From positions 1-21,536 of IMG/VR virus record IMGVR_UViG_3300025000_000464: DNA of 21,536 nt; one strand, written 5' to 3'. Both the position numbers and the translations under genes were made by a program. The notes beneath the pieces are model-generated. The model saw only the letters and a program-made list of their open reading frames with translations, was not told the DNA's origin and searched no databases. Positions within the stretch are counted from its first letter, which is position 1; each line of letters opens with the position of its first letter. The stretch comes from a virus. This document shows, piece after piece, positions 371 to 21,230 of this stretch.

Positions 371-1627
371 TTAAGCTACTCTTCGCAGTTCAGAAAAGGT
401 GTTCAAGGTCACCCCGCCGGTTACCCGTACCGCGTAATAGTGCCCGTCGGGCACGATAAGCACAAAAAGCCCAGACTCCGGCGGAGTTACCAGGTAATTA
501 TATACCACGGCTACATTTTCGGTAGCGGTTGCACTCGGGCCTATGTACACGGTTGCGTACCCAGCGGACTCCGGGGCTACAACGGCTATGGCTATCTGGA
601 TAGCTTGGCCGGTGTCGTTCTGATAGGTGCCTGTCACGGTACGAGCGCCAACATCTGGCCATACCCAGGACTGTCCGTAGCCAACAGGGACGACAGCGGG
701 TAGAGGCGCACTGAGCATAACGCTCCAATCGTTTGCAGCCTCTGCCGCCGAGGACACGAAATCAACATCCACGGTCATTGCCCCGGTAGATGGGGTGAAC
801 GCCGTTATGATGCCATGCATGAAATTGGATGCGGGGTTAGAGGTCTGAGCCGCTACAACATGCATACCAACAACGAAAGCCTTGCCTGTCTGTGCAAGCG
901 TGAGAGTCTTCTCCCCGGTTGCCGGGGTTATGCTTGAGTTACTGGTGGCGTTGGTACCTGGAGCGTTCACAGCAGTAGCCGCGCTTGCTGCTGCTTCAGC
1001 CGCGTCTTCAGCCGCAGCAGCCGCAGCACCGACAGCGGTATCCGCAGCACCCGTAGCTGTAGCTGCCGCTGAGGTGGCTTCCCCGATAGCCAGGTAGAGT
1101 ACCCACTTACCCGCAGCGAGGTCGGTAGCCCAGGTACCTGATGTGTGCGCGGTCAGGCAGCGATACCAATCACCAGTGGACGGGAGGACAACAATGTCTT
1201 TGACTAGGTAGCTAGTTCCGGTAGCCCAGTCACCACGCCAGAAGGATTCAGCCGCCTCCCCCTCCATGTACACCTGCATCTGCTGCAGGATCATGGTCAG
1301 TTTGTCGAACACAGCAGTAAGCAGGGGCATGTCTAGCGATCCTCCGTTCGCCCACGAGGTTGCTTGGGTTACGGGTATAACCCGACGTATCTCAATAGTG
1401 CCACCGGAGGCGTATGCCTCAGTTGTAACAACAATATTCGCACCAGCACCAGCAGGCAGGATGGTAACCGAGTAGTCAGTACCATTCACCAACCCGACGA
1501 TGGTACCATCAGGACGGATAAGCTGGGCCTGAATATGACTTGCCTCAAGTACCTTGAAAGTAACCCCATAGGTACCCGCTCCACTGAACAGATAGATTTT
1601 CAAAGGGCTAGTTGCGTCTACGGCCAT
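371..1627 (-). CDS. Tail fibre protein with T7 gp17-type N-terminal domain
   Basis: This 418-residue protein is likely the host-contacting tail fibre. Residues 1-125 look like the T7 gp17 N-terminal domain that docks the fibre to the tail: short beta segments, then a region ending IEIRRVIPVTQ (79-89) and a helix rich in L, M and Q (101-121). Residues 130-175 hold a Trp-rich segment (W130, W134, W154, W166, W175) resembling a small carbohydrate-binding module. Residues 183-222 are an Ala-rich helical stretch. Residues 226-308 form a module of a kind seen in other phage tail proteins, with TGKAFVVGMHV. Residues 316-415 form a C-terminal beta-rich domain starting GYGQSWVWPDV. No depolymerase motif is seen. 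T7 gp17 is longer (553 residues). The start overlaps the preceding gene by 20 bases and has a good ribosome site (AGGAGACGAA before ATG). Confidence 0.85.
   Translation of the reverse strand: MAVDATSPLKIYLFSGAGTYGVTFKVLEASHIQAQLIRPDGTIVGLVNGTDYSVTILPAGAGANIVVTTEAYASGGTIEIRRVIPVTQATSWANGGSLDMPLLTAVFDKLTMILQQMQVYMEGEAAESFWRGDWATGTSYLVKDIVVLPSTGDWYRCLTAHTSGTWATDLAAGKWVLYLAIGEATSAAATATGAADTAVGAAAAAAEDAAEAAASAATAVNAPGTNATSNSSITPATGEKTLTLAQTGKAFVVGMHVVAAQTSNPASNFMHGIITAFTPSTGAMTVDVDFVSSAAEAANDWSVMLSAPLPAVVPVGYGQSWVWPDVGARTVTGTYQNDTGQAIQIAIAVVAPESAGYATVYIGPSATATENVAVVYNYLVTPPESGLFVLIVPDGHYYAVRVTGGVTLNTFSELRRVA
1203..1216. repeat. ACTAG dyad 1 (spacer GTAG)
   Basis: ACTAG-GTAG-CTAGT, flanked by G and T, inside the tail fibre gene. 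It is read as TSYLV (residues 138-142) in the Trp-rich module. Confidence 0.85.
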
Positions 1628-4600
1628 TTCGTCTCCTCATTTCTGCCTCAATAAGAAATACCCCGACAGCCGCGTTCTTGTTGTCAGGATTCTTTGCGTC
1701 CGCCTGTGCTGCATTATACCACGCTTCTTTAGCTCCCATTGTACCGCTGTCAAGGAAGTTTCGCAAGTATGGGTTTTCAATGTGCTTTATTCCTGTCTTC
1801 TTTAACCGACCTTTGATGACTGCTGAGGTAACATTCAGGTCTTGTACCTTGTTGACTGTCTTGCCTATCTCCTCGCGGTTCAGCTCCCCTTTCTCGTTCA
1901 AGCCGAATAAACGCTCGGCTTCTTCATCGACGATACCTACATCGACAGCACGAGCAGAACGGTTGCGTTCCTCGATCCGGTGACCCTGCTCTCGGACACC
2001 CGCATCGCTGTGACTGATGAAGCGGTTATACATCTCGGAGCCAAACGGGAAACTAGTACCTAGTTGAGCTGCACGAGACAACGAACTTTCGGTAGCCCCA
2101 GCCTCTGGTGCAAACAGATGTCTCAAGTCTTCAGCCCAAGTCATCGGCTCACGAAGGCTTTTCCACACTGCCATGTCCTTTGCGGCAGTGTCAATAGCAG
2201 CAGTGATCCGCTCCTTGACGGTGTTTAGTTCGTTGTCACCATACTTCATATCTTTGAAGTAGTCGTCGTAGACGTTGCCCCTCAGCAGTATATCACCTAC
2301 CTCTCTGGGCATCGTCAAAGCTGGTGACAGGTTGGGCTTGAACCCCTCAGTCCCGAACAAGATAGACCCCGCCAGATCATTCAGGTGTTCATAGGCATCA
2401 CGTAGTTCAGGATCGTTTGGATCGGCACGATACGCGTCAACGATAGCTCTGGTCATGCGCTGAGACACAGCATACATGATCCGGTAGACAGGACTCTGAG
2501 GGGCGGGGATACGAAGAGATACCCCCTTGCCCTCCTCATCGACACTCTGGGGAATATGGAAGTTGGCTTCGAGCGAACGGGTAGACTGCTTACCGAGCAC
2601 AGAGGCCATACCTTCTACCTGATCCTCCTCGTCGTCAAACACGCCACTCTGCATCAGCCCCTGGACCACGCCCGGAACGACAGCGAGCATTGTAGCCCGG
2701 AGCATCCACTCAGGCTTGTTACGAGCGAACGCTTCAGCGTCACCGCGAATACCTTCCTTGATCGCGCCGATGAACGGGGAGATAGTATTCATCGCCGTAG
2801 ACCACGAACCCTTGCGCCCATAGGCGGGGGCACCGAGCTGAGTGCGGACAATATGCTCGATAGCGTCTTGGTTAAGATTCAACTCGCCACGCGCCTTGGC
2901 CTCCTCCATGTAGCGTAGCCCAGCCTGCTTACTGATACCCTCAGCCACGTTGTAGAAAGTGTCGAACAAGCCCCTGATACGCTGTCCAGTCTTGTCGAGC
3001 AACCCATAGGCCCGGTCGTTGACCTTGACTGCATAGCTCTGTGGTCCGTACTTGCTGAGAAGCCGCTCAGTTACCGTTGTATCTGTGGGGTCTTCGGTGA
3101 ACCGGGTGCCCTCAGACATCAACCCCCGCTCAAGAATCTTCATCGAGCGCGGAGACAGCTCGCCTTTGAGCGATCCCATCATTCGGTCTACGCCCTCAGT
3201 CACCATGTACCATGCCAGCTTCTCGTGACCAGCAAACGGTGATGCGTTGTAGACCTGTTTGGCATTACGCATCAAGGCTGAGTCAGTCGGCTCTATCCTG
3301 AGTTTCGTCTTTGGAGCGTTGGCGAAGGTACGGGCGGGATCATAGAACAGCAAGTTGGCAACCTGAAACCCCGCGTTGAAGACAACTGCAAACGACCGGA
3401 AGGCAGCGTTGGTCTTCATGACGCCTTTAACTCCAGTCCTGACTAGCTTCCTAGTCGTGTCAGCCGCACCCTTAGCCTTGACAGTGCTGCTCGCCAGCTC
3501 GCCAAACGACTGCGTTGCTATCTCGCTGAAGAATGTCGTGATAGCGTCAGGCTTGCCGTAGAACGCGTCATAGATCGCCTCGGGTACAAGGTACTCACGC
3601 AGCTCAACGATGTTACGCCCCAGCTTCTCGTTCCAGATACGTTCGGGAAACTGCACCTGACGTAACTCGTTACGCAGGTAGCCCCGCAGCAGTTCCGGCT
3701 GAAACCGACTGATCCGCTCAATCTCCATCGGCGTGAATGCAGGAGCTACACCCGTAGCACGAAGCTCGTTGACGACAGTCTTCAGGGCTTGCGTCTTTAG
3801 GACGCTGGAAACGATATACATATCTTGTTCAATAGTCGCGGCCATCGGGTTACGCACCCTGCCAAGGCTACCGACAGAGGGCCTCGCCTTGGCTACTTCA
3901 GCAGGAGTAAGAACTCTACCACCCATGCCACTACCACCATGTGCGCCTGCGTTCACCGCTTCAACATAGTGGCGCAGATCGTCAAAGCGGACATACCCTG
4001 AGTTGTCGAAAAACCACTGCATCGTCGCATCATCATACAGTTGGCTTTCCTTCATCAGCTTGAGCACGGTGTCTTTGCGGACCTCATGAAACTCACGCAG
4101 CAAAGAATCCATGTCAAGGTTCTGCAGCTTACCAGCGGTCTGCTGTTGCACTAGATCAAGACGGGCACTGAGCTGCTTCCGGGCATACACTGAGTCAATA
4201 CCAAGAGCGTTGAACAGGTCGGCCCTGCCTTCATCAGTCGATACCCTGTTGAAGAACAGAATTAAGCCAATATCGTCTTCCTTCAGGCCAGCAAGCCGCA
4301 GGGGTTCAGCAAAGCGTTTCTTCATGTTCTCGGTGTACCACCGCTGAACCGCTGAACCGTGCTGCATACGCTCAAGGACATTGCGAATCCGGTCGTTGCG
4401 CTTGAAGTGCTTCAGAACTGGTTGCATCTTGTCGAGGAACAGACTGAGAATCTTGTCCTCAGCACCGCTGATAGTGTGCTCACGGGGAGCCGCACCGGCC
4501 TGCTCTGCCTGTAGCTTGACATCTTCAGCAGTCTGAAACCCTTCCTTGAGCAAACTAGTAACTAGTTCGGGGTCTTTCTCCTTGGTGACGTACTCGGTCA

Positions 4601-6875
4601 ACTCGGCAAACCTCTGCTTCATCTCGGGACGCGACTGCCAGAAAACCTCCATCGCGCTCATCAGGCTGGGGGCATACTCGTGGATCAGCTCAGGCTTCTG
4701 AATATAAACGCTGACAACATCCGCGATCATCTCGGCCCCGCTGGTACGGTAGTCACTGATCATGAACAGGTCTTTAGCGGCGGGTCGCCACAGGCGGGAG
4801 ACGAACGCGCCCTCGTCCCAGATGTCCTGCATGTTCAGGCCGTTCTTCTGGGCGTGATCGAGGATTTCCTGGAACATCTTAGGGAACGACACAAGTGTTG
4901 TCAGGAAGTTGTCCGCCAGCCCTGTTGTCTTCCACTGCTCCCAATTACGGCTGAAGTACGACAGGAGGTGACCTATCTCGTGGGTCATAGTCAGGAGCTG
5001 ACGCTCGACCGGACCAGCAGAGAGAATGCGGTTCATAACGATTTTACCTTCATCCGCCCTCAGCTCATCAGTCTTCAGCGAGTCAACCTTCTTGGTGATG
5101 TCGGCTATACGCTCAGACCATTGAGCTGTATTGTGACCACGACGAGCCTCTTTACGCAGGTCACGCTGAAGACGTACAAGCTCCTTCTCGTGCGCTCTGA
5201 TCTCAAGCTGGCGTTCACGACTCGCAGATGAGAAGTAGCCAAGAATCGTACCCTCGTTGGATCGCAAGTCCATATCTGTCTTGGTGTCACGAGCACGGAT
5301 GCTCTGCTCTTTGCCAAAGCCGAACAGCTTGGTAGCCCAGGATATCATGGTCGGCAGCTCGATAAGCCCGGAAGTAGACAAGGCCAACGAGTTTGCGCTG
5401 TCGATGGGGACCATGACCTTCTTACCGTTGGGCAGGTCGATAACCTCGAAACGATCCCCTTGGAACAGTGGGATGGGCATATCCACACCAGCAGGCGGCT
5501 GCACCAGTACACGGATAGCGGGAGGCTGACTAGGGGTGCTAGTTGCTGGAGGGGCTGCGCCTGCTGTGGCCTGCTTGACCGGCTCAACGTCAGGCACGAA
5601 CCTACCCGCCCTCAAGTCCTGCTTGAGTACATCGAGGCTTGCCTGTAACGGCGGTACTTCAGGCTCGATACCCCCCGCCTTCTCGTAGGCGCGTATGCGG
5701 GTGGTGTCCTGGTTGAGCAAGTCCTCAAGGACGGTGATGTCCTTAGAAGAGTCAACCGCTACCGAGTAAGGATGTCGGGCATTGCGGACGTAGGCTTCCT
5801 TCAGAGAGCCAACGATAGCGTTGCTGGCAGACAGGTTGCCGAGGTCCGTACCAAGACGGCGCACACCACCGAACAGCTCCATACCTAGGATGAGGCCAAG
5901 GGAGGTGGCGAACTCATCCTTGCCGGGGAGCACAAGGGGGTTGTGAAGCTGGGATTGTACCGTCGCTATCGCGGTTGCTTCAGGGACGAGAAACCCGGAG
6001 GCTTTAACGAATCCCATGATCGGGTCTTTAGCGTTCTCAAGTATCTTGGCACGGGCCTCATGACCAGCACCAAACATATTACCCATCGCATAACCCTTAA
6101 CCGTATCATAAAGGCTCCCACCAAGCATCTTAAGGAAGTCGGGCTTACGTCCCTCCTTCTCTGCCATAAACTTCTCATAGTACATCCGCCGGATACCCTC
6201 AAAAAAGCCAAAGGATGCCCCTGAGCGAACGGCAGCACTCGCCTCGTTAGCGAATAGGGGGGCACTCCGTAACAGCGGTACAGCCCTACCTGCGGCGTTC
6301 CCTATGGCCGGTATGGTGCCACCAAGGCCCAGCAACCAGAAGTCAGGACCGAGCGCAAGGGCTGTCCTGCCGATCTTGTCAGTTATGCTGAGACGGTCCT
6401 CTCTGGCCTGATCCAGCTCAACGTCAAATGAGCCACGCATGACTGAGCCAGTAAGCGACATCTGCCAAGCGGTCTTCTGCAGATAGGCGCGATCCTTCAT
6501 CAGTTCAGGCAGGGTATCTAGCACCTCGTCAATCCGCACCTGCTGGTTCTCAGAGGGTGCGATCATCGACTCCCCGCCAGTACCAGCAAAACCTGTCTCG
6601 CTACTGTACCAACGCTTGACCTTGGCCTTCTCCAGCTCCTCACGTACCTTCTCGTCAGGAGACTGCCCAACCTGTGGACGAGTAGAAAAGCCCTGCTGTT
6701 CAACTAGGTCGCTAGTTGACATGACAGGGCCTCCCTGCACCTCGTTTATCTCGAACTGATCCAAACCGCTAGGCGGCTCCACATCGAAGTCATCAGCGGT
6801 AGGATCAGTCAGAGCAGCCTGCTGGTCTGGGGGAGCAGCCTGCGGGTATTCTACTACCTCAAAATCAAACGCCAT
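1608..6875 (-). CDS. Giant internal virion (ejection) protein with HEIGH metalloprotease motif
   Basis: This 1755-residue protein occupies the position of the T7 gp16 ejection protein, last of three internal virion genes and just before the tail fibre. T7 gp16 is shorter (1318 residues) and carries a lytic transglycosylase; I see no such motif here. Instead residues 632-636 read HEIGH, the HExxH zinc site, followed at 712-719 by SGAEMIAD, where E715 is a plausible third zinc ligand as in gluzincin proteases. The segment after it (Y-I-Q-K-P-E-L-I, then a charged helix) resembles domains in other very large phage polyvalent proteins. The N-terminal 120 residues are acidic and low in hydrophobics. 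Hydrophobic stretches near 175-200 and 1400-1420 could contact membrane. The start has a GAGGC ribosome site nine bases from the upstream stop. Its TAG stop overlaps the tail fibre gene. It contains five ACTAG dyads (2052, 3442, 4554, 5529, 6703). Activity is untested. Confidence 0.85.
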   Translation of the reverse strand: MAFDFEVVEYPQAAPPDQQAALTDPTADDFDVEPPSGLDQFEINEVQGGPVMSTSDLVEQQGFSTRPQVGQSPDEKVREELEKAKVKRWYSSETGFAGTGGESMIAPSENQQVRIDEVLDTLPELMKDRAYLQKTAWQMSLTGSVMRGSFDVELDQAREDRLSITDKIGRTALALGPDFWLLGLGGTIPAIGNAAGRAVPLLRSAPLFANEASAAVRSGASFGFFEGIRRMYYEKFMAEKEGRKPDFLKMLGGSLYDTVKGYAMGNMFGAGHEARAKILENAKDPIMGFVKASGFLVPEATAIATVQSQLHNPLVLPGKDEFATSLGLILGMELFGGVRRLGTDLGNLSASNAIVGSLKEAYVRNARHPYSVAVDSSKDITVLEDLLNQDTTRIRAYEKAGGIEPEVPPLQASLDVLKQDLRAGRFVPDVEPVKQATAGAAPPATSTPSQPPAIRVLVQPPAGVDMPIPLFQGDRFEVIDLPNGKKVMVPIDSANSLALSTSGLIELPTMISWATKLFGFGKEQSIRARDTKTDMDLRSNEGTILGYFSSASRERQLEIRAHEKELVRLQRDLRKEARRGHNTAQWSERIADITKKVDSLKTDELRADEGKIVMNRILSAGPVERQLLTMTHEIGHLLSYFSRNWEQWKTTGLADNFLTTLVSFPKMFQEILDHAQKNGLNMQDIWDEGAFVSRLWRPAAKDLFMISDYRTSGAEMIADVVSVYIQKPELIHEYAPSLMSAMEVFWQSRPEMKQRFAELTEYVTKEKDPELVTSLLKEGFQTAEDVKLQAEQAGAAPREHTISGAEDKILSLFLDKMQPVLKHFKRNDRIRNVLERMQHGSAVQRWYTENMKKRFAEPLRLAGLKEDDIGLILFFNRVSTDEGRADLFNALGIDSVYARKQLSARLDLVQQQTAGKLQNLDMDSLLREFHEVRKDTVLKLMKESQLYDDATMQWFFDNSGYVRFDDLRHYVEAVNAGAHGGSGMGGRVLTPAEVAKARPSVGSLGRVRNPMAATIEQDMYIVSSVLKTQALKTVVNELRATGVAPAFTPMEIERISRFQPELLRGYLRNELRQVQFPERIWNEKLGRNIVELREYLVPEAIYDAFYGKPDAITTFFSEIATQSFGELASSTVKAKGAADTTRKLVRTGVKGVMKTNAAFRSFAVVFNAGFQVANLLFYDPARTFANAPKTKLRIEPTDSALMRNAKQVYNASPFAGHEKLAWYMVTEGVDRMMGSLKGELSPRSMKILERGLMSEGTRFTEDPTDTTVTERLLSKYGPQSYAVKVNDRAYGLLDKTGQRIRGLFDTFYNVAEGISKQAGLRYMEEAKARGELNLNQDAIEHIVRTQLGAPAYGRKGSWSTAMNTISPFIGAIKEGIRGDAEAFARNKPEWMLRATMLAVVPGVVQGLMQSGVFDDEEDQVEGMASVLGKQSTRSLEANFHIPQSVDEEGKGVSLRIPAPQSPVYRIMYAVSQRMTRAIVDAYRADPNDPELRDAYEHLNDLAGSILFGTEGFKPNLSPALTMPREVGDILLRGNVYDDYFKDMKYGDNELNTVKERITAAIDTAAKDMAVWKSLREPMTWAEDLRHLFAPEAGATESSLSRAAQLGTSFPFGSEMYNRFISHSDAGVREQGHRIEERNRSARAVDVGIVDEEAERLFGLNEKGELNREEIGKTVNKVQDLNVTSAVIKGRLKKTGIKHIENPYLRNFLDSGTMGAKEAWYNAAQADAKNPDNKNAAVGVFLIEAEMRRRNGRRRN
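2052..2064. repeat. ACTAG dyad 2 (3-base spacer TAC)
   Basis: ACTAG-TAC-CTAGT with A and T flanks, in the giant internal virion gene. The spacer is one base shorter than most, and the coding frame shifts accordingly (QLGTS), again avoiding TAG. Confidence 0.85.
3442..3455. repeat. ACTAG dyad 3 (spacer CTTC)
   Basis: ACTAG-CTTC-CTAGT with complementary G and C flanks (six-base arms). It is translated as TRKLV in the giant internal virion protein. Confidence 0.85.
4554..4566. repeat. ACTAG dyad 4 (3-base spacer TAA)
   Basis: ACTAG-TAA-CTAGT with A and T flanks. It is translated as ELVTSL in the giant internal virion protein, about 65 residues after the metalloprotease ligand E715. Confidence 0.85.
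5529..5543. repeat. ACTAG dyad 5 (5-base spacer GGGTG)
   Basis: ACTAG-GGGTG-CTAGT with G and T flanks, the only 5-base spacer. It is translated as TSTPS in a Pro and Thr rich linker of the giant internal virion protein. Confidence 0.8.
6703..6716. repeat. ACTAG dyad 6 (spacer GTCG)
   Basis: ACTAG-GTCG-CTAGT. Arms extend to seven bases (CAACTAG and CTAGTTG, 6701-6718). It is translated as TSDLV near the N-terminus of the giant internal virion protein. Confidence 0.85.
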
Positions 6876-6884
6876 CAGTTGCCT

Positions 6885-8888
6885 CTATTTCTTCAGCTTG
6901 AAGTTCACTGCGTACCAGCCGGGTTCATACACCTTGCCATCTTTCTCTCTTGCCACTGGATACAGGACAGCATAGCCTGTGTATCGCTCCATACCCTCTG
7001 GGGTGTTCTTTACCTCGCCGTTGTATAGGAAGCGGACCTGTGTAGCCCCCGGAGAAACCTGCTGGATCGCGTCATATATCTGTGCCCGGTCACCGAGTTG
7101 AGTGCCTATGTTGGTCTTAATGTAGTCCGCCTCACCCCAATTCAGTTGAGGCAAACCCTCTTCTGGCTTGGACTGTGGAATCGGCTCATCCGTCCAGTTA
7201 CCAGACATCTTGTTCTCGTTCTGCTGCAGCATAGCGGCGTACTGCTCAACCCGGTAGGTTTCCCCCAGCGTCTCGAAAGCATCCATCGGGAAGCCGAGCA
7301 TACCCTCTGGCCCTGCATCCTCTTGCTTACCGTTGATCTTCTCCATCTCAAGACGGAGAATCTCTTCCATGTTGGCATGGCGCTGGGCAGGAGCAACAGT
7401 TTGATCCTGTGCTGCCGCCTGTAGCTTCATCTTGATCGCTTGGGCGTAGTTGACGACATCAGAACCTGGAGCCTGCGGACCCTCCCCCGGCTTGGTCTGG
7501 AAACCCCCAAAAAAGTCCGCGATACTGTTGGTGTTAAGGGCCTTGTCGATACTCTTGACGGCTGTCAGGTAGTTCTGTTTCAGCGTCTTTTCGTCTTGAG
7601 CCAGCGGTTTGAGATGTTCGTTGTACAAAGCACCCAGCTCTTTTGGCCCTAGCCCAAAAGACTCAAACTGCCTGTCAAACTCCCAGCGGTTCGGGATGAC
7701 CACCCCATCAAGGCCAAGCTGATACATCGCATCCCGTGCGTCGAGGATGTTGTTCTGCTTCTCTCGGGGGTCTTTTAGGGCGTCATCGCGCTGGTTAATC
7801 AGCATATTCAGAAGGGTGTGATCCTCCGCTGCCTCTGGGACTAAACGAAGAATGTCGTTGATAGTTGTATAGTCACCTGGTTTCTCGAATATCTTACCCA
7901 GCCCTCTGGCATAGCTCCGGTCAGCACTCTCACTCCATGCCTTACGCGCTGCCACCTCCTTGCGCTCCTGATCTCGAACCTCCTCTTCTCCCTGCGCCTC
8001 AATATACGCGTCGAGGTTGACAAGGGCCTTTCGTGAAATGGTGTCTTTTACATCCTCACGATAGTTCTTGAGTGCTTCCATACCATTCTTACCGCGTTGC
8101 TTGGCATCGTCATACCGGGCATTGCTGCCTACCAGCACGGCTTGATCCCAATGCTCAGACATACCCTTAAAGTCGGTACCAAACAAATGAGCAAAGCCAT
8201 CCTTCAGTTCGGTAACACGGGTCGTGTCGTAGACTAGCTCCCTAGTCAGGTCTTCAGCTTTACGATACTGGAGTTGCTGCTCATACTCTGCCTGCTCCTG
8301 AGCGATATGCCCGGAAGCCCTGTTCAGGGTGGTATCCCGGATGCTATATATGCGGGCCATCGCCTTCTGCTTCACCTCTGGATCGAGTCCCGAGATGAGG
8401 CTGGTCATCTTGTCTTCTACCGTCGAGAAGAACTGCTTTCGCGCATCGACTGCAGCTTGGCCTTTAAGACCTGAAAAACCAAAATCACCTTTTTCAGGGT
8501 CGCCAAAATACGAGGTCCGTGCAAACTCATTAAACTGTAGAACTGCCTCATCTGCTTGAGCATCGTTGACCCTCTCCGCATATTTGAAAACCGCATTACT
8601 GAGAATCTGACCCACTGAGTTGATAGTCTGGGCATCGACCCCTGATCCGTTGGTAATCAAAGGCTTGGCTTTCAACGTGTCGAGGGGCTGGGCGTGTACC
8701 TGGGCACCGGCTGCGCTGAGTCTCCGGGCGGCACTGGGGTCAACCCCTCCTTTGCCACCTGAGATACCGCGCTCCTGTCCCCCTGTCTCAAGCCTGCGGT
8801 TGGCAGCGGGAGACGCAAAACGGGTGCCTCGTCCGGTACCCAGACCCTCGGTTAGTATCGTGCCTTCTATCTGTGGTTGGCTTGCCAT
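6885..8888 (-). CDS. Internal virion protein, T7 gp15-like position
   Basis: This 667-residue protein is probably an ejected virion protein comparable in place to T7 gp15, between a gp14-like and a gp16-like gene. The first 70 residues are Gly, Ala and Arg rich and look disordered. Residues 85-200 are helical, with QADEAVLQFNEFARTSYFG and then GLKGQAAVDARKQFF, a pattern I associate with ejection proteins of podovirus-like phages. The middle is charged and helical (QERKEVAARKAWSES). The C-terminus is more beta-like and ends AVNFKLKK. There is no signal peptide and no catalytic motif that I can name. One ACTAG dyad at 8233 is translated as TRELV. The gene begins 7 bases after the upstream stop and ends 9 bases before the next start, so it is tightly coupled. 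The assignment rests mostly on order, size and composition. Confidence 0.75.
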   Translation of the reverse strand: MASQPQIEGTILTEGLGTGRGTRFASPAANRRLETGGQERGISGGKGGVDPSAARRLSAAGAQVHAQPLDTLKAKPLITNGSGVDAQTINSVGQILSNAVFKYAERVNDAQADEAVLQFNEFARTSYFGDPEKGDFGFSGLKGQAAVDARKQFFSTVEDKMTSLISGLDPEVKQKAMARIYSIRDTTLNRASGHIAQEQAEYEQQLQYRKAEDLTRELVYDTTRVTELKDGFAHLFGTDFKGMSEHWDQAVLVGSNARYDDAKQRGKNGMEALKNYREDVKDTISRKALVNLDAYIEAQGEEEVRDQERKEVAARKAWSESADRSYARGLGKIFEKPGDYTTINDILRLVPEAAEDHTLLNMLINQRDDALKDPREKQNNILDARDAMYQLGLDGVVIPNRWEFDRQFESFGLGPKELGALYNEHLKPLAQDEKTLKQNYLTAVKSIDKALNTNSIADFFGGFQTKPGEGPQAPGSDVVNYAQAIKMKLQAAAQDQTVAPAQRHANMEEILRLEMEKINGKQEDAGPEGMLGFPMDAFETLGETYRVEQYAAMLQQNENKMSGNWTDEPIPQSKPEEGLPQLNWGEADYIKTNIGTQLGDRAQIYDAIQQVSPGATQVRFLYNGEVKNTPEGMERYTGYAVLYPVAREKDGKVYEPGWYAVNFKLKK
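8233..8246. repeat. ACTAG dyad 7 (spacer CTCC)
   Basis: ACTAG-CTCC-CTAGT with complementary G and C flanks. It is translated as TRELV in the gp15-like protein. The core is identical to the copy at 15086. Confidence 0.85.
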
Positions 8889-9825: not shown

Positions 9826-11615
9826 TATCCGTACACCTCCACGTTGTCGATAATACAAACCACCGTCAAGGGCAGCGGCGAACGCTGCCGAATCAATACC
9901 CGTAGCTCATCGGTGTAGCCTTCAGGGAAGCCGATCTGCTTCAGTCCGGTAAACAAAGGTATCTGCTCTCCTGTGTTATGGCTGGGGTAACGGAAGGGCA
10001 GCTCCTCGAACACCTCCTCGCCCTCCTCAGTGACGTATCCGTACTCGAACCCTATGGACTTGTTCAGCATAATGTCCATGCGCGGTACGCTCACCACCCT
10101 ACCCAGTATTGTACCATCGTTCAGCGGTACATCCAAGAGGGTAGGTTCGAGAACTGACTCATACTCCAATCCGACGACCACCTTTGAAGCGGCAACGTCG
10201 AGATTGATTGTACCATCCACGACTAGTTGACTAGTCACGACACAGCCATCAGCCAAGATGCCAACCGTCTTACCCTCAAGATGCTCAAGCCCGGTAAGCT
10301 CGGTAACTGCCGTCTCACTCTCGAAAACTATGTGGCTGTCGAGGAAGTAGGCATCAAGCGGTGACGTGCTCTTAAACTCAGGTTTCTTCTGCTCAACATA
10401 CCACTTCGTTGCGCCATCAATCGTCCGCTGTACTACTGCCCACAGGTCATCCTCTCGGTCCCCCGGTATGCAACCCACGGCAAGGAACTGTCCGTCCGTG
10501 TCATGACGATGCCAACCAGTAACCTTGTGCTCCCGCTTGAAGGTCAAGCCAAGCAGGGCACCATCACGACGCACACACCAGACGATACCGTGCGGGGTCT
10601 GCTGGTAGTCCCAGCCAGTGATGTAGTGCTGCTCGGTCAGGTGGGGAGCCAGTACCGACAAGTCAACCGTATCATAGGTATCTGAGTTGAAGTCAAATAT
10701 GAACTGGTTGATCTTCCTGCCGTGCCGTTCAACAAACAGGGTTACCGGCCCGATCATCAGGGCGGGCTTACGCTCTCCACCATTATTGGTATGCCGCGCT
10801 ACTCGGTTGGACTGAAACGACAGAGGCTCATATCCGCTGCCAGATATGGCCCACTCATCACCAAGGGTGCCGATCAAGAGCTGCTTGGCTGAGTTTGTCC
10901 ATTGTACCCGGTTCTGTGTTCCTGAGTCGAAGGTCAGCGTAACCGCGTCACTCGCTACAATCGGGCTACTCTTGCCGAAGTCGTAGAAGTCGCCAGACTT
11001 TGAAAACCACACCGTCTGAGGTCTAGCAAAGGTGGACAGATAAGCGATACGTTGCTCATAGAAGTCAACAAACTCCGGGTATCCGTCCGTCGCGTTCCAG
11101 TCGGAAGGCATGTCGGTGAACGAGCACTCGTTTGCCGACCACTCTGCTGCTCCGAGACGCTTGAACTCGATAGGTACTCGTCCCGACTGGGCTATGTAGA
11201 GTATGTCAGCAGACTGCTTATAAGTGAACTGCTCAAGGGAGAATCCCCCAGTAAACTCATACACGTAGGGGTTTCCCGGATCGAGTGGGTCTTCGAGTAG
11301 ACCGTCTCCCGTAGCAAACACACAACGCACAGTGAGGGTGCTATGACGATAGAAGATGATCGCATACGCCTGTGTTTCCGAGAAAACAAAGGGCACTATG
11401 CGGGGATACTGAGTAGAAGCGGGGGTACCAAGCAGGGGGGTAAGATCGAAACGAAAGCAGAAGCCCTCCCGTCTAGCTGCCGGGCCTTGCGGTTTTACGT
11501 GCATATTCCGCAGGGTCCGACAACCGAAACGGTAGCGGTCATTTTCTACTTGAGCAAGAAGGAGGGGGGATAGTTCGCCAGCGGTGAAGTTCCTTTTAAG
11601 TCGATGTATAGCCAT
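9825..11615 (-). CDS. Tail tubular / nozzle protein (T7 gp12-like role)
   Basis: This 596-residue protein starts MAIHRLKRNFTAGELSPLL, an opening typical of a widespread family of short-tail phage stabilisation or nozzle proteins (xxNFxxGElSP, then LRNMHVKPQGPAARREG). That opening is followed by alternating beta-rich blocks, for example YEQRIAYLSTFARPQTVWFSKSGDFYDF around residues 188-215, and LLIGTLGDEWAISG near 247-260. In T7 the equivalent gp12 forms the distal tail nozzle; I infer the same role. It follows the tail tubular A-like gene with a 20-base overlap and shares a TAATG junction with the next gene. No protease or lysozyme motif is visible. One ACTAG dyad at 10222 is translated as TSQLV. 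The start ATG at 11615 is favoured because the family pattern begins there. Confidence 0.85.
   Translation of the reverse strand: MAIHRLKRNFTAGELSPLLLAQVENDRYRFGCRTLRNMHVKPQGPAARREGFCFRFDLTPLLGTPASTQYPRIVPFVFSETQAYAIIFYRHSTLTVRCVFATGDGLLEDPLDPGNPYVYEFTGGFSLEQFTYKQSADILYIAQSGRVPIEFKRLGAAEWSANECSFTDMPSDWNATDGYPEFVDFYEQRIAYLSTFARPQTVWFSKSGDFYDFGKSSPIVASDAVTLTFDSGTQNRVQWTNSAKQLLIGTLGDEWAISGSGYEPLSFQSNRVARHTNNGGERKPALMIGPVTLFVERHGRKINQFIFDFNSDTYDTVDLSVLAPHLTEQHYITGWDYQQTPHGIVWCVRRDGALLGLTFKREHKVTGWHRHDTDGQFLAVGCIPGDREDDLWAVVQRTIDGATKWYVEQKKPEFKSTSPLDAYFLDSHIVFESETAVTELTGLEHLEGKTVGILADGCVVTSQLVVDGTINLDVAASKVVVGLEYESVLEPTLLDVPLNDGTILGRVVSVPRMDIMLNKSIGFEYGYVTEEGEEVFEELPFRYPSHNTGEQIPLFTGLKQIGFPEGYTDELRVLIRQRSPLPLTVVCIIDNVEVYG
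10222..10235. repeat. ACTAG dyad 8 (spacer TTGA)
   Basis: ACTAG-TTGA-CTAGT with complementary G and C flanks. It is translated as TSQLV in the nozzle-like protein. It differs by one base from the E. coli trp operator core (spacer TTAA). Confidence 0.85.
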
Positions 11616-12679: not shown

Positions 12680-12709
12680 AAACCCCGACTAGCAGCCTAG
12701 TCGGGGTTT
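12680..12709 (-). terminator. Long hairpin after capsid genes, terminator or attenuator
   Basis: A perfect inverted repeat has 13-base arms (AAACCCCGACTAG and CTAGTCGGGGTTT) around a 4-base loop. In the transcribed direction the stem ends in three T, then GGAGG and the ATG of the next gene. A GC-rich stem with a short T run suggests a partial terminator, in the same place as the T7 terminator after the capsid gene 10. It can equally affect access to the adjacent ribosome site. The top of the stem is one of the 15 ACTAG dyads. Confidence 0.75.
12688..12701. repeat. ACTAG dyad 9 (spacer CAGC), top of the long hairpin
   Basis: ACTAG-CAGC-CTAGT, between the cement gene and the Cys/His gene. It is the only copy whose arms extend far (13 bases), giving a terminator-like stem. 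Confidence 0.9.
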
Positions 12710-13109: not shown

Positions 13110-13123
13110 ACTAGCGACCTAGT
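13110..13123. repeat. ACTAG dyad 10 (spacer CGAC)
   Basis: ACTAG-CGAC-CTAGT in the 41-base gap between the major capsid and cement genes, seven bases before the cement ribosome site GGAGG. Outer bases continue the symmetry with one mismatch. Confidence 0.9.
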
Positions 13124-14155: not shown

Positions 14156-14192
14156 AGTCTGTCTCCTTTAGAAATTGCGTGTTAAGGGGTTC

Positions 14193-14897: not shown

Positions 14898-15231
14898 CTG
14901 TATCGCCTCCGTCATCCTGTTGGGGTTTGTGTTCCAGTATCATCTTGGTGTAGATACTTGGATCAATCTCAAAAAGTAAGTCCAGTATCTGCAATCCAAC
15001 TTTACGGGAACCCTCTGTCATGAAAACCGTGTTATCACAGGCTGTATTGACGTTGTAGAGGCCGGTAAATCCTAAGATTTCCCAAACTAGCTCCCTAGTT
15101 GACTTATCATGCAACGCTTTTGCGAAATTTGCAAGTTTGATTTTCTCATCTCGCTGATTTTCGCTCGTTTCACGCACCAAGTCATCATAGGTCTGGGTAA
15201 CCGTTCGGTCTATACCTCGTCTTCTCGCCAT
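14890..15231 (-). CDS. Bbp19-like small phage protein
   Basis: This 113-residue protein is basic at the start (MARRRGIDR) and acidic at the end. Residues 38-95 read as a helical domain: TRELVWEILGFTGLYNV, then FMTEGSRKVGLQILDLLFEI and DPSIYTKMI. This matches the pattern I know from BPP-1 Bbp19-type proteins (R-V-L-W-xx-L, FxEGxRxVGLxLL, xDPxxYxxM), which lie between portal and scaffold genes in related phages. Their role is not established. The start forms a TAATG junction with the portal stop, suggesting translational coupling. The segment TRELV at residues 45-49 is encoded by an ACTAG dyad at 15086. In other family members a simpler sequence usually occurs there, which would be worth checking. 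Confidence 0.75.
   Translation of the reverse strand: MARRRGIDRTVTQTYDDLVRETSENQRDEKIKLANFAKALHDKSTRELVWEILGFTGLYNVNTACDNTVFMTEGSRKVGLQILDLLFEIDPSIYTKMILEHKPQQDDGGDTDG
15086..15099. repeat. ACTAG dyad 11 (spacer CTCC)
   Basis: ACTAG-CTCC-CTAGT with A and T flanks, inside the Bbp19-like gene. It is translated as TRELV (residues 45-49). Confidence 0.85.
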
Positions 15232-16937
15232 TACATCACGCTCCCGCCCATGATCTCGCTGATATCAACTCCAGCCCCGGCAAAGTCACGAGCGGCAGCG
15301 GCGGTGTTGGTCAGCCCCTCGCCCTGAATCTGGGTCTGAGCAGCCTTCTCTGCCATTGCCTGCTGCTTCTGCTGGGCCTGAGCACGGGCCTGCCTACGTT
15401 GAGCTACCTCGGCCTCGGTGTTCAACACGACAGCCGGGACACCCGTCATATCAGCAACCTCGTCAATGGTTCGGTCGGTGTTGATCTTGTCCCTGGCCGT
15501 ATCGTCAAACGGCACGATACCCGCAACGAACTGGAAGAAGTTCTGAATCGAGCGCACCTCGATCAGCTTCTGCTGCTGGGCGAGGGGTCCGATCAAGGTT
15601 ATGTTGATACCTCCGGCACTCTTCAACATCTCAGGGTCCATCGGCGCAAACAGGCCGCGTCTGAGCATACTGTTGAAGCACCGGGTGACCAGATCGCACA
15701 GGGCTTCCGAGTACAACCGACCGATAACAGGCCCCAAACGAATAACTCCCTCATCCTCCCGTGCATCGACCTCACGGGCCTTCAGTGGGGAAGCGTTCGG
15801 ATCACGCATACCCGTCAGGAAAACGTCATTGAAGCAGGCTTTCCTGATCGCCATCTCGACCCGCTCGGAGGCAGCACTCACACCAGAGTAATCGAAACCC
15901 GCATTAACGATTGGCTCAACCTTCTCGTTCGGGTTAGCTACATAGTTATAACCCCCCGGCAAGGTATTGGCCTTTCCTCTCATCCGGGCCGGGATGTTAT
16001 ATGGCGGATTGACAGCCTTATGAGTGGCTATCAGGAATGCCTTCTCCATCTCCTGCAGACGCTTGGCGAGTGGCAGGATACGACTACCTACACCTACCCC
16101 CATGTTGTCAGTTCCAATAGCGTCCCAACGAGCAGTGTGGTAGGGGAACTCATGATACCCAGCGATCTTGAGAGGCTTCTCTTGATCCTGAGCCTCAATA
16201 CTTGAGTTCCCTGATTCGAGGAAGTGGACAGAGGTCCACGGCTTGTTCCTATACTTACGAGCGTAGACGCAGACAATTACCCGCCTCTTGGCGGTGTTCT
16301 GCTGGGCGTTGTCCGCTGTCAACGTATCGCGGATATCTTCGGGCAGGTTCTCCTTGCCATAGTTCAGCTCAAGCTGGCGAAGGCTCATGTCGATGTAGCG
16401 GAAGTACTTGTCGATCCGGCCATTTTTACCCCGGAACAGGAAATATTCCCCAAAGGTCAACAGGTCGAAGTGAAATATCTTCTCGTCGTCATCCGCGTTG
16501 TGGACAGAGGCATTGCCGAACCCGGCACACTCCTTGTAGAACCCTGGCATAACCTCGTAGAAGTTCGACAAGTTCCAGGCCTCGTGCATCCGCTTCTGAC
16601 AATCATACAGCCAGTTCCGCAGCGACGAGCTGGGAGGTGAGGGATCACCCACGAAGTCAAGCCGACACCAATGCCGGGACTGGCCGGTAAGCCGTCCGTG
16701 CATACCGCTGGTCAGTATCTCAACTGCGTCCTCAGCAACCGGGTTGACAATATCCCGGCTGGAGAACGAACGTCTCTTGACGGTGGTGTTGCCCGGTTTC
16801 GTGGACAGACTGTCAAAACGACCGCGCCCAGGTAGAACGAAGCGGGCAATCTCCTTACCTTCCTCGATCCAATCCTGGGCTTCTATGACCGCCTCGTGAT
16901 AGTCCCGGCGTAAGTCCTTTATGCTTGGCAGCGCCAT
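15231..16937 (-). CDS. Portal (head-to-tail connector) protein
   Basis: This 568-residue protein forms the dodecameric portal through which DNA is packaged and ejected. It begins MALPSIKDLRRDYHEAVIEAQDWIEE, and residues 55-95 hold KRRSFSSRDIVNPVAEDAVE and LTSGMHGRLTGQSRHW, the signature region of the phage head-to-tail connecting protein family shared by T7-like and BPP-1-like phages. The middle contains DNMGVGVGSRILPLAKRLQE. The stem and crown region follows (LYSEALCDLVTRCFNSMLRRG), and the C-terminus is Gln and Ala rich (AQRRQARAQAQQKQQ) before a Gly-rich tail. Length suits the family (about 530-580). The start overlaps the previous gene by one base (TAATG) with a G-rich ribosome site. No ACTAG dyad lies inside this gene. 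Confidence 0.92.
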   Translation of the reverse strand: MALPSIKDLRRDYHEAVIEAQDWIEEGKEIARFVLPGRGRFDSLSTKPGNTTVKRRSFSSRDIVNPVAEDAVEILTSGMHGRLTGQSRHWCRLDFVGDPSPPSSSLRNWLYDCQKRMHEAWNLSNFYEVMPGFYKECAGFGNASVHNADDDEKIFHFDLLTFGEYFLFRGKNGRIDKYFRYIDMSLRQLELNYGKENLPEDIRDTLTADNAQQNTAKRRVIVCVYARKYRNKPWTSVHFLESGNSSIEAQDQEKPLKIAGYHEFPYHTARWDAIGTDNMGVGVGSRILPLAKRLQEMEKAFLIATHKAVNPPYNIPARMRGKANTLPGGYNYVANPNEKVEPIVNAGFDYSGVSAASERVEMAIRKACFNDVFLTGMRDPNASPLKAREVDAREDEGVIRLGPVIGRLYSEALCDLVTRCFNSMLRRGLFAPMDPEMLKSAGGINITLIGPLAQQQKLIEVRSIQNFFQFVAGIVPFDDTARDKINTDRTIDEVADMTGVPAVVLNTEAEVAQRRQARAQAQQKQQAMAEKAAQTQIQGEGLTNTAAAARDFAGAGVDISEIMGGSVM

Positions 16938-17275
16938 TAGGCCCCCGACATCTTAGCTGAGACGGTTGTTGGCTCCTCACCATCAGCAAGTGGCGAGGTC
17001 AGTATAGTCGAGGACCGGCCACGACGACGAGCAAGCTCACTGGCGGTGTCCGTAGCGATCTTGCTCTGTAGTTCCTTCTGCTTGGCCTGCCAATCGACGT
17101 TCATCGGCTTCTCGATGGTCGGCGGGGTTGGCATCCCAGGCATCTGGATACTGTTGTTGATAGCCATCGAAGCCATCGAGGCCATCATCCCCATCATCGG
17201 CGCAATCATCGCGTTCATATCCACCTGCGGCTGCACCGGAGGCGGGGTGTAGTTGTCTTCACTCTTACCACCCAT
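16937..17275 (-). CDS. Small MGGKS protein with RGRSSTILT C-terminal motif
   Basis: This is a 112-residue protein of unknown function. It starts MGGKSEDNYTPPP, then has a Met-rich helix (MIAPMMGMMASMASMAI, residues 23-39), a Pro-rich linker, and a charged helix (WQAKQKELQSKIATDT). It ends with ARRRGRSSTILTSPL, a short motif I recall near the C-terminus of small virion-region proteins in many short-tailed phages. The preceding gene also starts MGGKS and ends with a similar RGGATVLT stretch. The two use different codons for MGGKS, so the likeness is at protein level. The ribosome site (AGGAG, 17283-17287) lies inside an ACTAG dyad that also holds the upstream stop codon. It is probably a portal-associated or internal virion protein; that is inference from context. 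Confidence 0.7.
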   Translation of the reverse strand: MGGKSEDNYTPPPVQPQVDMNAMIAPMMGMMASMASMAINNSIQMPGMPTPPTIEKPMNVDWQAKQKELQSKIATDTASELARRRGRSSTILTSPLADGEEPTTVSAKMSGA

Positions 17276-17276: not shown

Positions 17277-17290
17277 ACTAGGCTCCTAGT
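17277..17290. repeat. ACTAG dyad 12 (spacer GCTC), holds a stop codon and a ribosome site
   Basis: ACTAG-GCTC-CTAGT. On the coding strand it supplies the TAG stop of the upstream MGGKS gene and the AGGAG ribosome site (17283-17287) of the downstream MGGKS gene, whose ATG follows one base after the dyad. Confidence 0.9.
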
Positions 17291-17982
17291 AAGGTTTTGC
17301 TGTTTGCCTCGTCTTCCTCGGTCAGCACGGTTGCCCCACCTCTGACTGGCCCCCCAACCTTCTTACCCTCTTTGCTGAGTGCGCCCTCGGTACCTGTTCC
17401 CGTACCCCGCGTAACCGGCAGGGTCCAGTCGTAGGCGGTGTTACCTGCTCCCCACTTACCATAGAGGTCAGCGAACTGGGCCTCGGACGACTCAGACCAG
17501 TAGTCAGCAAACATGTTGTTGATCCGGGCCTGCTTCTCCTCTTCGGAGACAGCGAAGTCCAGACCCTTGACAGAGGCATGAGCTGCCTCGTCGCTGATCT
17601 GGGTGTTTACGTCCGCAATGGCCTTGTTGGCCGCATCCAGCTTGGTGCCAAACACCTGATCGAGCGAGGCCAAGCCTTGCATCTGCTCTGCTTCCTTCAG
17701 GGCTTTCTCCTGCTGCGAGGCATACTGTGCTGCCAGTTCCTCCTGACGACCATAGGCCATCTCCTGCTGACCGGCAAGGGCCTCGAAGATCGCCCCGAAG
17801 TCGAACTCAGGCATCATCGGCGCGGCCCCATAAGTGCGTCCCTCGGCCTGCCCCCAGCGTTGGTAGTGGTAGTAGGGATTCAACCCCGACTCGGCTACGT
17901 CCGGGTAGCGGCTGAGGTAATCGAAGTCCTCAGCCGAAGCTGCGGGGGCCATGCTGGGATCACTTCCTGATTTTCCACCCAT
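17278..17982 (-). CDS. MGGKS protein with PDVA-type motif, unknown function
   Basis: This 234-residue protein begins MGGKSGSDPS. Residues 20-51 read DFDYLSRYPDVAESGLNPYY followed by H-Y-x-x-W-G-x-x-E-G-R, a pattern close to the YPDV-A-x-G-x-NP-HY-x-G-EGR repeat known from diverse bacterial secreted and surface proteins. Here there is one copy. Residues 70-130 form a Gln, Glu, Ala rich probable coiled coil. The C-terminal third contains W and Y residues (YWSESSEAQFADLYGKWGAG) and the tail GGPVRGGATVLTEEDEANSK. The start ATG has GGGAG six bases upstream. Its stop codon (TAG) is formed by one ACTAG dyad (17277), and another dyad (17995) lies just before its ribosome site. I expect a virion or portal-linked protein, without proof. 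Confidence 0.7.
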   Translation of the reverse strand: MGGKSGSDPSMAPAASAEDFDYLSRYPDVAESGLNPYYHYQRWGQAEGRTYGAAPMMPEFDFGAIFEALAGQQEMAYGRQEELAAQYASQQEKALKEAEQMQGLASLDQVFGTKLDAANKAIADVNTQISDEAAHASVKGLDFAVSEEEKQARINNMFADYWSESSEAQFADLYGKWGAGNTAYDWTLPVTRGTGTGTEGALSKEGKKVGGPVRGGATVLTEEDEANSKTLLGA

Positions 17983-17994: not shown

Positions 17995-18008
17995 ACTAGG
18001 AAGCTAGT
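17995..18008. repeat. ACTAG dyad 13 (spacer GAAG), holds a stop codon
   Basis: ACTAG-GAAG-CTAGT. It forms the TAG stop of the acetyltransferase-like gene and directly precedes the GGGAG ribosome site of the next gene. Confidence 0.9.
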
Positions 18009-18550
18009 TCGTCTGCTGTGAGGACTGTAACCAGCCCCGGTGTGTATTCGTCCAGATCGTGCATGTAACACGCTCCGGGTATGGTCGCGACCGGCTTGAA
18101 GCCAACCTGCTTGATGAACCGGCAGGCCAGCTTGTTACGGGTCGGTGTAACCCCTATCAAGGTCTGAGCCAACGGCAACGGCGAGCTATACCGGCGCATC
18201 TTGAAGAACTCAACCAATGTTGCCTTGGCTATCTCTACCGAGCTTACATGGCCGTGCCCCCTGCGTAGAATTGAGAAGTGAACATACGCGGTGAGACCCG
18301 CAAAGTTTGTCAAGTGAAAATGCCCTATTGGCAACACCTCATCATTGATGAATACTACAAAGAAATGCTTGTTCCTGTCAAGGCAGAAATCTCGGAAGTC
18401 CTTGAATGCACGAATCTTCGCGTCATAGAACAGCGAGTCGATCAGACCGTCTTCGTTGAGCTGGCCCCAGTAGTAAGCCAGCACCATCTCAGCCGCTCCT
18501 ACCTTAGCCCTGATCAAGTCACGCACATTAACGATCTTGATAGGGATCAT
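17996..18550 (-). CDS. GNAT-like acetyltransferase in the late operon
   Basis: This 184-residue protein shows a GNAT-like order. A central strand (residues 62-69, HFFVVFIN) and turn lead to IGHFHL (75-80), then HFSILRRGHG (91-100), where RRGHG resembles the acetyl-CoA pyrophosphate loop R/Q-xx-G-x-G/A. A helix follows, and TPTRNKLACRFIKQVGFKPV (135-154) matches motif B with its N, A and GF landmarks. The substrate is unknown. Related phage acetyltransferases sit in late operons, and T7 gp13 has been compared to this fold. I chose the ATG at 18550, which overlaps the upstream stop as ATGA, over a GTG at 18562. The last codons and TAG stop (ELAS-stop) are made by an ACTAG dyad. It could be a virion protein that lost activity. 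Confidence 0.65.
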   Translation of the reverse strand: MIPIKIVNVRDLIRAKVGAAEMVLAYYWGQLNEDGLIDSLFYDAKIRAFKDFRDFCLDRNKHFFVVFINDEVLPIGHFHLTNFAGLTAYVHFSILRRGHGHVSSVEIAKATLVEFFKMRRYSSPLPLAQTLIGVTPTRNKLACRFIKQVGFKPVATIPGACYMHDLDEYTPGLVTVLTADELAS

Positions 18551-19128
18551 AGCACACCCCACTGTTTCGCAAGCGCCTTCGCGTGTCCGGGGTAGGTGTT
18601 ACTGCGTAGTTCATCACGCACAGGCCCAGGTGGCATACGGTGACACTCCTGCTTAATCTCTGGATAGTCAGACTTCTTGTGCGTAGCCTTCAGTAGCGGA
18701 AGACCGGTCAACCACCAACCTGTAGCTTTGCTGTAGGGATCACCAAACCACCACGGCTGGACAAACTGGGTAGCAACGCGGCCTATGCGTGATACCGCGT
18801 GGCAGTGCATTATCGGGTTCTCAATAGCTCTCAACGGTATGTGCGTAGCTCGTTCAAACAGCAAGAAGAACTCGACACCCTTCAGCATCAGTTCCCAACG
18901 TCCTTGCTGCTCGGACAGCCAACGCACCCCGGAGTTACAGAGGTATGTGCAGGTGGGATGCGCGATAAGCAAATCCCACTGGCGATACAGAACATCCCGG
19001 ACATCCCCCTGATAATGCGGTCCGGGTCTCCTCGTGGGCTTCAGATCACAGGACCACGCGTTATGCCCTTCTGCTATGAACGCATCACGAACGATCCCAG
19101 AACACTCACAGGCTACCAGAACGTTCAT
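18547..19128 (-). CDS. C5-cytosine methyltransferase-like protein, compact form
   Basis: This 193-residue protein opens MNVLVACECSGIVRDAFIAE (motif I-like), then GHNAWSCDLKP and GDVRDVL (41-47). HPTC at 57-60 corresponds to the PC catalytic loop (usually HPPC in this phage family) and carries a Cys at the expected place. IENPIM at 102-107 resembles motif VI (ENV). The later block GDPYSKATGWWLTGLP is also typical of this widely distributed phage group. It lacks an obvious target-recognition domain and is about half the size of standard C5 methyltransferases, so the DNA target is unknown and activity uncertain. I favour the ATG at 19128, where family similarity begins; an in-frame ATG at 19140 is possible. 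It overlaps the terminase by 23 bases and the acetyltransferase by 4. Confidence 0.7.
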   Translation of the reverse strand: MNVLVACECSGIVRDAFIAEGHNAWSCDLKPTRRPGPHYQGDVRDVLYRQWDLLIAHPTCTYLCNSGVRWLSEQQGRWELMLKGVEFFLLFERATHIPLRAIENPIMHCHAVSRIGRVATQFVQPWWFGDPYSKATGWWLTGLPLLKATHKKSDYPEIKQECHRMPPGPVRDELRSNTYPGHAKALAKQWGVL

Positions 19129-20541: not shown

Positions 20542-21204
20542 TTACAGCAGCTCGTTGAGAACTAGTTCCCTAGTTACGTCAGGGGTGAACGTAGTTGGTA
20601 GCCGCATCTGCTCCGGCAGGGAGTCCTCCAACCGCTTCATCTCGATCAGTTGCCGGTCGTCGGTGATGAGGTCGGTCATCCTGTTGCTGGCCTCACCGTT
20701 GAGAGAGGGAGCAGCCTGGCCCCAGAGCACCACGATACGCTTGTCCTCCTGGGTGTAGACCTCCGTCTTCTCCGAGATGCCCAGGTAGGCCGACATCAGG
20801 AACTTGCCGAACGATTGGTTGAGCTTCTCGGTCAGACCCACTCTTGTGAGGAAGTCCGCCAGGATGCTGCAGCCGATCAGCAGGTAGTGGCGGGAGTCCT
20901 CCGGGTGGTCGATGTTCTCGATGGCCTTCTTGAGTGAGTTGAAGTTGGCGAAGCCCAGCGCACGGGCAAAGCTCTCCGGTGTTGGCATCAGCGAGAACAC
21001 CTTGCGTGTGGGTATCGTCAGGTTCTTGTTCTTCGGGGCGTTCTGGGTAACCGCAGCCAGGTCGTTGGGATGCTCGAACAGCTCATAGAACGGATGCTCG
21101 TTGAAGTAGTACTCAATTCCTGACTTCAGCCACTCCCCGTTGCACATGATAGTGCTAACAGGGAGGTGGCAGTTGATCTGTATCTTACCTTCTTTGGTCA
21201 GCAT
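20542..21204 (-). CDS. Probable terminase small subunit
   Basis: This 220-residue protein probably binds the packaging site and regulates the large terminase, which follows after 8 bases. Residues 73-96 (MPTPESFARALGFANFNSLK and onward) look like a helix-turn-helix. A helix from 103 to 130 leads to SFGKFLMSAYLGISEKTEVY (131-150), and then RIVVLWGQ. The KFxxSxxxGxxEKxxV pattern followed by a short strand is typical of small terminases. The first 60 residues are unusual (NCHLPVSTIMCNGEWL) and I cannot place them. The only strong ribosome-like sequence, AGGAGG at 21222-21227, lies inside an ACTAG dyad, 17 bases before the ATG, which is longer than normal. A second dyad encodes TRELV five residues before the end. 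The identity is inferred from position and pattern. Confidence 0.65.
   Translation of the reverse strand: MLTKEGKIQINCHLPVSTIMCNGEWLKSGIEYYFNEHPFYELFEHPNDLAAVTQNAPKNKNLTIPTRKVFSLMPTPESFARALGFANFNSLKKAIENIDHPEDSRHYLLIGCSILADFLTRVGLTEKLNQSFGKFLMSAYLGISEKTEVYTQEDKRIVVLWGQAAPSLNGEASNRMTDLITDDRQLIEMKRLEDSLPEQMRLPTTFTPDVTRELVLNELL
20561..20574. repeat. ACTAG dyad 14 (spacer TTCC)
   Basis: ACTAG-TTCC-CTAGT with A and T flanks, near the 3' end of the probable small terminase gene (translated TRELV), 28-41 bases before the large terminase start. Confidence 0.85.
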
Positions 21205-21216
21205 GGCGTTGGTGTG

Positions 21217-21230
21217 ACTAGCCTCCTAGT
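21217..21230. repeat. ACTAG dyad 15 (spacer CCTC)
   Basis: ACTAG-CCTC-CTAGT in the 38-base gap before the probable small terminase gene. On the coding strand its loop and left arm contain AGGAGG, the only strong ribosome-like sequence for that gene. Confidence 0.9.

Follow-up and report, generated by a model that had tools for sequence, protein, structure and literature searches.

The virus record IMGVR_UViG_3300025000_000464, analyzed here over its whole 21.5-kb length (positions 1 to 21,536; hereafter the window), belongs to an uncultured podovirus-like phage whose encoded proteins include recognizable members of portal, capsid, tail, and TerL families. Scattered through it are 15 copies of a gapped dyad, ACTAG-N3-5-CTAGT, whose sequences are under selection and which recur in dense arrays in two relatives. 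At the right end lies a gene for an XRE-type helix-turn-helix (HTH) protein, our candidate for the factor that binds them. The sequence-only reading of this DNA had listed 15 dyads, and all 15 lie where it placed them, with a spacer of four bases in 12 of them, three in two, and five in one; as it also reported, the preceding base is always a purine (15 of 15) and the following base a pyrimidine in 14 of 15. The features are as follows.

1203..1216: dyad ACTAG-GTAG-CTAGT, within a tail-fibre-like gene (371-1627, minus strand)
2052..2064: dyad ACTAG-TAC-CTAGT, within a 1755-aa gene; of the 14 dyads that align, the sole one not retained in the relative G1
3442..3455: dyad ACTAG-CTTC-CTAGT, within the same 1755-aa gene
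4554..4566: dyad ACTAG-TAA-CTAGT, within the 1755-aa gene
5529..5543: dyad ACTAG-GGGTG-CTAGT, within the 1755-aa gene
6703..6716: dyad ACTAG-GTCG-CTAGT, within the 1755-aa gene
8233..8246: dyad ACTAG-CTCC-CTAGT, within a 667-aa gene
10222..10235: dyad ACTAG-TTGA-CTAGT, within a tail protein gene (9825-11615, minus strand)
12688..12701: dyad ACTAG-CAGC-CTAGT, lying between genes at the apex of a perfect 13-bp inverted repeat (AAACCCCG...CGGGGTTT)
13110..13123: dyad ACTAG-CGAC-CTAGT, directly downstream of the major capsid gene, a location also used in G1 and G031
15086..15099: dyad ACTAG-CTCC-CTAGT, within a 113-aa gene (14890-15231, minus strand)
17277..17290: dyad ACTAG-GCTC-CTAGT, at a gene junction, giving the stop of gene 17278-17982 and the AGGAG ahead of the ATG of gene 16937-17275
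17995..18008: dyad ACTAG-GAAG-CTAGT, overlapping the 3' end of gene 17996-18562
20561..20574: dyad ACTAG-TTCC-CTAGT, close to the 3' end of a 220-aa gene upstream of TerL
21217..21230: dyad ACTAG-CCTC-CTAGT, in the gap separating the 220-aa gene from the XRE gene
21243..21536, minus strand: XRE-type helix-turn-helix gene, cut by the right end of the window; candidate dyad-binding protein

Dinucleotide shuffles of the window contain 0.09 dyads on average with the three spacers pooled, and never more than one, compared to the 15 observed. CTAG occurs 42 times, 30 of them within dyads; the 12 outside include just two ACTAG and two CTAGT, in agreement with the earlier count. When synonymous codons are shuffled within each gene, a mean of 0.05 in-gene dyads remains (maximum 1) against 12 observed. 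Together, the dinucleotide and codon shuffles rule out chance or base composition as the source of the dyads. A mobile repeat was likewise rejected, as the copies have dissimilar spacers and flanks that are alike over only about three bases. This free variation of the spacers, which the earlier reading had noted among the window copies, extends to the comparison between the window and G1.

GenBank holds no close phage for the window, but the IMG/VR collection contains several relatives. One, G001 (hereafter G1; 48,131 bp, TerL 97%), carries 31 exact dyads, and a 5.7-kb record, G002, carries four. A second genome, G023 (hereafter G23; 47,939 bp, capsid 74%), carries 27, and the 12.2-kb record G022 carries six; because G022 bridges both ends of G23, the latter is probably a complete circular map. 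With gene coordinates in G1 and G23 taken from a simple gene caller made for this analysis, synonymous-codon shuffles leave 1.1 and 1.4 in-gene dyads where 21 and 15 are observed, so that the array exceeds both chance in relatives and codon-preserving shuffles, and the check that the sequence-only reading named as able to refute it did not do so. Most dyads fall in transcribed DNA, at a density of about one per 1.6 kb. The earlier description of a late-region array holds insofar as late genes do carry dyads, but the array is not confined there, since G1 and G23 also have dyads in early and replication genes. The G23 portal gene is apparently split over two frames (276 + 289 aa; L043 12013-13716, G23 44013-45716), which appears to be either an assembly error or a real frameshift.

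A deeper relative, G031 (about 28.6 kb, TerL 57%), holds three exact dyads where 0.06 are expected. All three read TA-ACTAG-N4/5-CTAGT-TA, and one closely follows the capsid gene, a position also occupied in the window and in G1. The dyads are not a general trait of the wider group: more distant records, with portals about 24-45% identical, have none, except for one with a single copy. In about 1.58 Mb of viral DNA, in which many loci had been chosen for holding one dyad, no further contig with a comparable gapped-dyad array was found. When IMG/VR was scanned for CAACTAG-N4-CTAGTTG, the dense matches among those listed were the same phages; contigs with two to four copies were also among the matches listed, two of them repeating one identical copy. 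A TerL-profile search of GTDB genomes for a host found no relative in bacterial genomes. The nearest near-complete relative without dyads is G008 (TerL 45%), in which CTAG is strongly depleted (6 versus 53 expected). An 18-base tandem repeat coding AKEAPA is present at both G008 contig ends (L045 1-80 and the end of L047), which suggests a circular genome, and an apparent GGCCG array in G008 proved to be this same repeat.

Nucleotide identity between the aligned window and G1 sequences is 84.6%. All ten dyad bases are kept in G1 for 13 of the 14 window dyads that can be aligned, the exception being the dyad at 2052, with three changes. Of all aligned segments, 28% keep every column of a matched 10-column mask, and against this background the retention of at least 13 of 14 has a binomial probability near 6e-7. 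The dyad sequences are held by selection. At the -1 base, changes between window and G1 dyads are mostly A/G exchanges.

Copies with one mismatch number 0, 4, and 2 in the window, G1, and G23, compared to 1.3, 3.2, and 3.0 expected and to 15, 31, and 27 exact copies; spacers of 0-2 and 6-9 bases yield no exact copy in any of the three. Because one-mismatch copies are at chance level, recognition looks all-or-none. Each half-site extends outward to Y-R-ACTAG (pyrimidine, purine). The -1 base is a purine in 29 of 30 half-sites in the window and 61 of 62 in G1, and is A in 54 of 54 in G23, while a pyrimidine occupies -2 in 22 of 30, 53 of 62, and 52 of 54, respectively (127 of 146 together). On the sense strand, the outer pair is A..C 17 times and G..U three times. 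The base on one flank of a site is independent of that on the other, indicating that a site is read half-site by half-site and not as a pair. Such half-site-wise constraint without pair covariation argues for a dimeric protein on DNA over a hairpin. The proposal in the sequence-only reading that the dyads are sites for a symmetric DNA-binding protein thus finds good support in exact conservation, in these flanks, and in co-occurrence with the XRE gene, whose product is a candidate for that protein.

Most positions have turned over between G1 and G23. Only about five of 31 dyad positions are shared, two of them in the primase-helicase gene and the other three downstream of genes that correspond in both genomes, yet dyad number stays similar (31 and 27). 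Spacing is more even than random, with coefficients of variation of 0.47, 0.61, and 0.50 in the window, G1, and G23 compared to 0.91-0.95 (p = 0.002, 0.003, and 0.0002). In the same order, dyads lie within 60 bp of a gene 3' end more often than expected (p = 0.003, 1e-7, and 4e-7), which may simply be where new sites cost least, and 10 of 15, 17 of 31, and 13 of 27 lie entirely within genes. Several junction dyads serve also as a stop codon and as AGGAGG plus start spacing (ACTAGGAGGCTAGTTATG). Terminators were considered and rejected as a general explanation, with long stems lying under only a few dyads. Dyads do cap long, terminator-like intergenic inverted repeats at matching places in three phages (window 12688-12701, L039 3585-3598, and L041 337-350).

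The XRE candidate is about 110 aa long, and its gene sits where early and late regions meet, ahead of the terminase genes; the G031 copy also precedes the terminase. An AlphaFold2 model of an orthologue (pLDDT 79.6) places the HTH in helices 27-37 and 41-50, the latter being the predicted recognition helix, and the Foldseek neighbours of this model are mostly XRE proteins (HigA, SinR, C.Csp231I), although weak ones at E 0.3 or worse. The orthologue alignment contains 13 invariant residues, with S40, S42, Y45, Q46, I47, and R49 in or beside the recognition helix, while two of the orthologues are only 31-35% identical to the first. A profile search among the relatives detects the gene in dyad-bearing phages alone: the window, G1, G23, and G031/G030. 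Scanning the entire IMG/VR collection with the alignment returns exactly G1, G23, G030, and G031, all with excess dyads, and no homologue is found in GenBank phages. This co-occurrence is a correlation with shared descent, from which we infer that the XRE protein may bind the dyads.

The reading that we favor, at what we judge to be an even chance, is that a dimer of the phage's own XRE-family (Cro/CI-type HTH) protein binds the dyads as sites scattered over the genome, most likely acting as a transcription roadblock or in silencing. An XRE dimer would read two YR-ACTAG half-sites, usually 4 bp apart and spanning 14 bp overall. With about 30 sites, nearly all in transcribed DNA, the protein would act on the whole chromosome, and when bound could block the host RNA polymerase and so silence phage transcription or shut it off late. 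Operators of the 434 type are also 14-bp dyads, with roughly the spacing of two XRE recognition helices; the size is shared, but 434-type operators are few and sit in one switch region, whereas about 30 sites are dispersed here. The conserved inverted repeats of phiC31 are themselves dispersed and are bound by the phiC31 repressor.

Several observations weigh against this reading. The HTH_3 match of the XRE protein (E 1.6e-4; 16.4-16.9 bits) falls under the curated cut-off of 23, and Foldseek with the model gave no match below E 0.001. Because few independent lineages are involved, the co-occurrence may reflect common descent. A lysine/alanine-rich (KA-rich) early protein that co-occurs with the dense arrays could be the binder instead. 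A rigid HTH dimer would not usually tolerate 3-, 4-, and 5-bp spacers alike, and even spacing together with positional turnover favour an organizing array over a roadblock. Finally, the long divergent control region of G23 (L043 3592-4549, G23 35592-36549) lacks CTAG altogether, and the one in G1 (L038 9332-10597) contains only imperfect or widely spaced copies. In this G1 region, a one-mismatch dyad lies within a promoter-like pair on the minus strand (9420-9392), and an ACTAG-N14-CTAGT at L038 10538-10561, with half-sites about one helical turn further apart, lies just after a rightward promoter-like pair. A role as promoter operators was rejected, given the absence of dyads from the G23 region. 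Both control regions, which are possible replication origins and promoters, share a TGTCAAAATAACA-like element, and each contains iteron-like repeats, reading GTAGCTG... in G1 and CTATGGATTGTGA in G23.

The same even spacing and turnover underlie the alternative of a genome-organizing array, in which the sites anchor phage chromatin or a packaging-competent structure through the XRE protein, the KA-rich protein, or both, and in which density rather than position is what the phage needs. We consider this rather unlikely. In its favor, the site count is kept (31 and 27) while positions have mostly turned over, about half or more of the sites are intragenic, and the KA-rich protein, which has a highly conserved segment (SWGHMVNRASERFTMLNP), is shared by both dense-array genomes and undetected in G008. 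Genes common to G1 and G23 and undetected in G008 include those for the XRE-type HTH protein, the 338-aa KA-rich protein (L038, that is G1 1-16100, at 7907-8923, minus strand; L043 417-1544, minus strand), a MoxR-type ATPase, and a VWA/DUF2201 protein; for the KA-rich protein, the comparison covers G1, G23, and G008, as the G031 contig lacks the early region. Beyond G1 and G23, the KA-rich protein was found nowhere else in IMG/VR or in GenBank phages. Against an organizing array, the KA-rich protein matches no known family, DNA-binding or otherwise, and no structural homologue, its structure model is poor (pLDDT 52) and uninformative, and G031 has just three dyads in its about 28.6 kb. In the early region of G1 (L038 4837-7790), the MoxR-type ATPase and VWA/DUF2201 metallopeptidase-like pair has a radical SAM gene between its members.

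A lytic lineage might, as a minority possibility, maintain position-independent exact dyads for chromosome organization by an XRE dimer, perhaps together with the KA-rich protein. The organizing role could then be condensation, clearing of transcription before packaging, or segregation, and we would hold it similarly tentative that this is a chromatin-type array and not an immunity or operator system. The XRE link and the junction preference lead us to favor the roadblock slightly over such an array.

Improbable, in our estimate, is that the dyads act as RNA or single-stranded DNA hairpins with a 5-bp stem and a loop of 3-5 nucleotides that are recognized or processed. The spacer limits of 3-5 suit small loops, all eight dyads tested fold in this way at -3 to -9 kcal/mol (-22.5 for the longer stem at 12688), and a few cap long terminator-like stems. 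However, the core is invariant, with no compensatory change at any of the five stem positions, and the -1/+1 bases are strongly constrained yet unpaired (the A..C excess), as half-site reading gives. Spacers of 6-9 are absent though such loops would fold too. Although every tested dyad can fold as an RNA hairpin, this explanation is weakened.

The sequence-only reading had likened the array to the stoperators of mycobacteriophage L5, a resemblance that holds for number and spread. L5, a Cluster A phage, carries more than 20 copies of one short repressor site genome-wide, in operators and short intergenic spaces (PMC9283540). These 13-bp sites are asymmetric, bound by a monomer of the temperate immunity repressor, and oriented with transcription (PMC9283540, PMC6550527), and motif and repressor co-evolve across relatives (PMC6550527). 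The present dyads are instead 14 bp, symmetric, unoriented, exact, evenly spaced, and often intragenic (about half or more of the sites), with one-mismatch copies at chance. We consider doubtful an immunity system of this kind, in which the phage would be temperate, the XRE protein its lysogeny repressor, and the dyads stoperators. Comparable site number, the gene-junction preference, and a regulator gene near the divergent control region speak for it; but no integrase or partition (ParAB) gene was found among the proteins scanned, which covered most but not all genes, and the TerL profile found no relative in bacterial genomes. As lysogeny genes were not found, immunity of the L5 type is unproven. 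Nor did the proteins scanned include a methyltransferase. A second temperate system, SPBRE of SPbeta, is a 15-bp motif at about ten promoter or intergenic regions, bound by the recombinase-like repressor MrpR (PMC10516654). It resembles the present array in being a regulator site repeated in one phage genome with a phage-encoded binder, but its sites are promoter-linked or intergenic, whereas nearly all sites here lie in transcribed DNA. We would place the array among such dispersed phage regulator-site arrays, with a putative function.

Least probable is exploitation by the phage of sites for a host DNA-binding protein such as a TrpR-like repressor: the E. coli trp operator contains exactly ACTAG-TTAA-CTAGT and so shares the ACTAG-N4-CTAGT core, but both of its -2 bases are G and one of its -1 bases is T, where the phages have a pyrimidine and a purine, none of four phage records encodes a Trp repressor, sister phages differ in the flanking base that they prefer (A only versus A/G), the sites track a phage gene, and the TrpR regulon consists of few operators in contrast to a genome-wide array.

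Dispersed arrays of exact sites are known in few phages, and those of L5 and SPbeta belong to temperate immunity. The lineage described here offers a natural series for array growth, from none through three per 28 kb to about 30 per genome, and with a protein of about 110 aa and a 14-bp site, binding and roadblock tests would be simple. If the reading is true, constant density, moving positions, and an all-or-none sequence in phages that show no lysogeny genes would mean that a virus can need a chromosome-wide count of sites.

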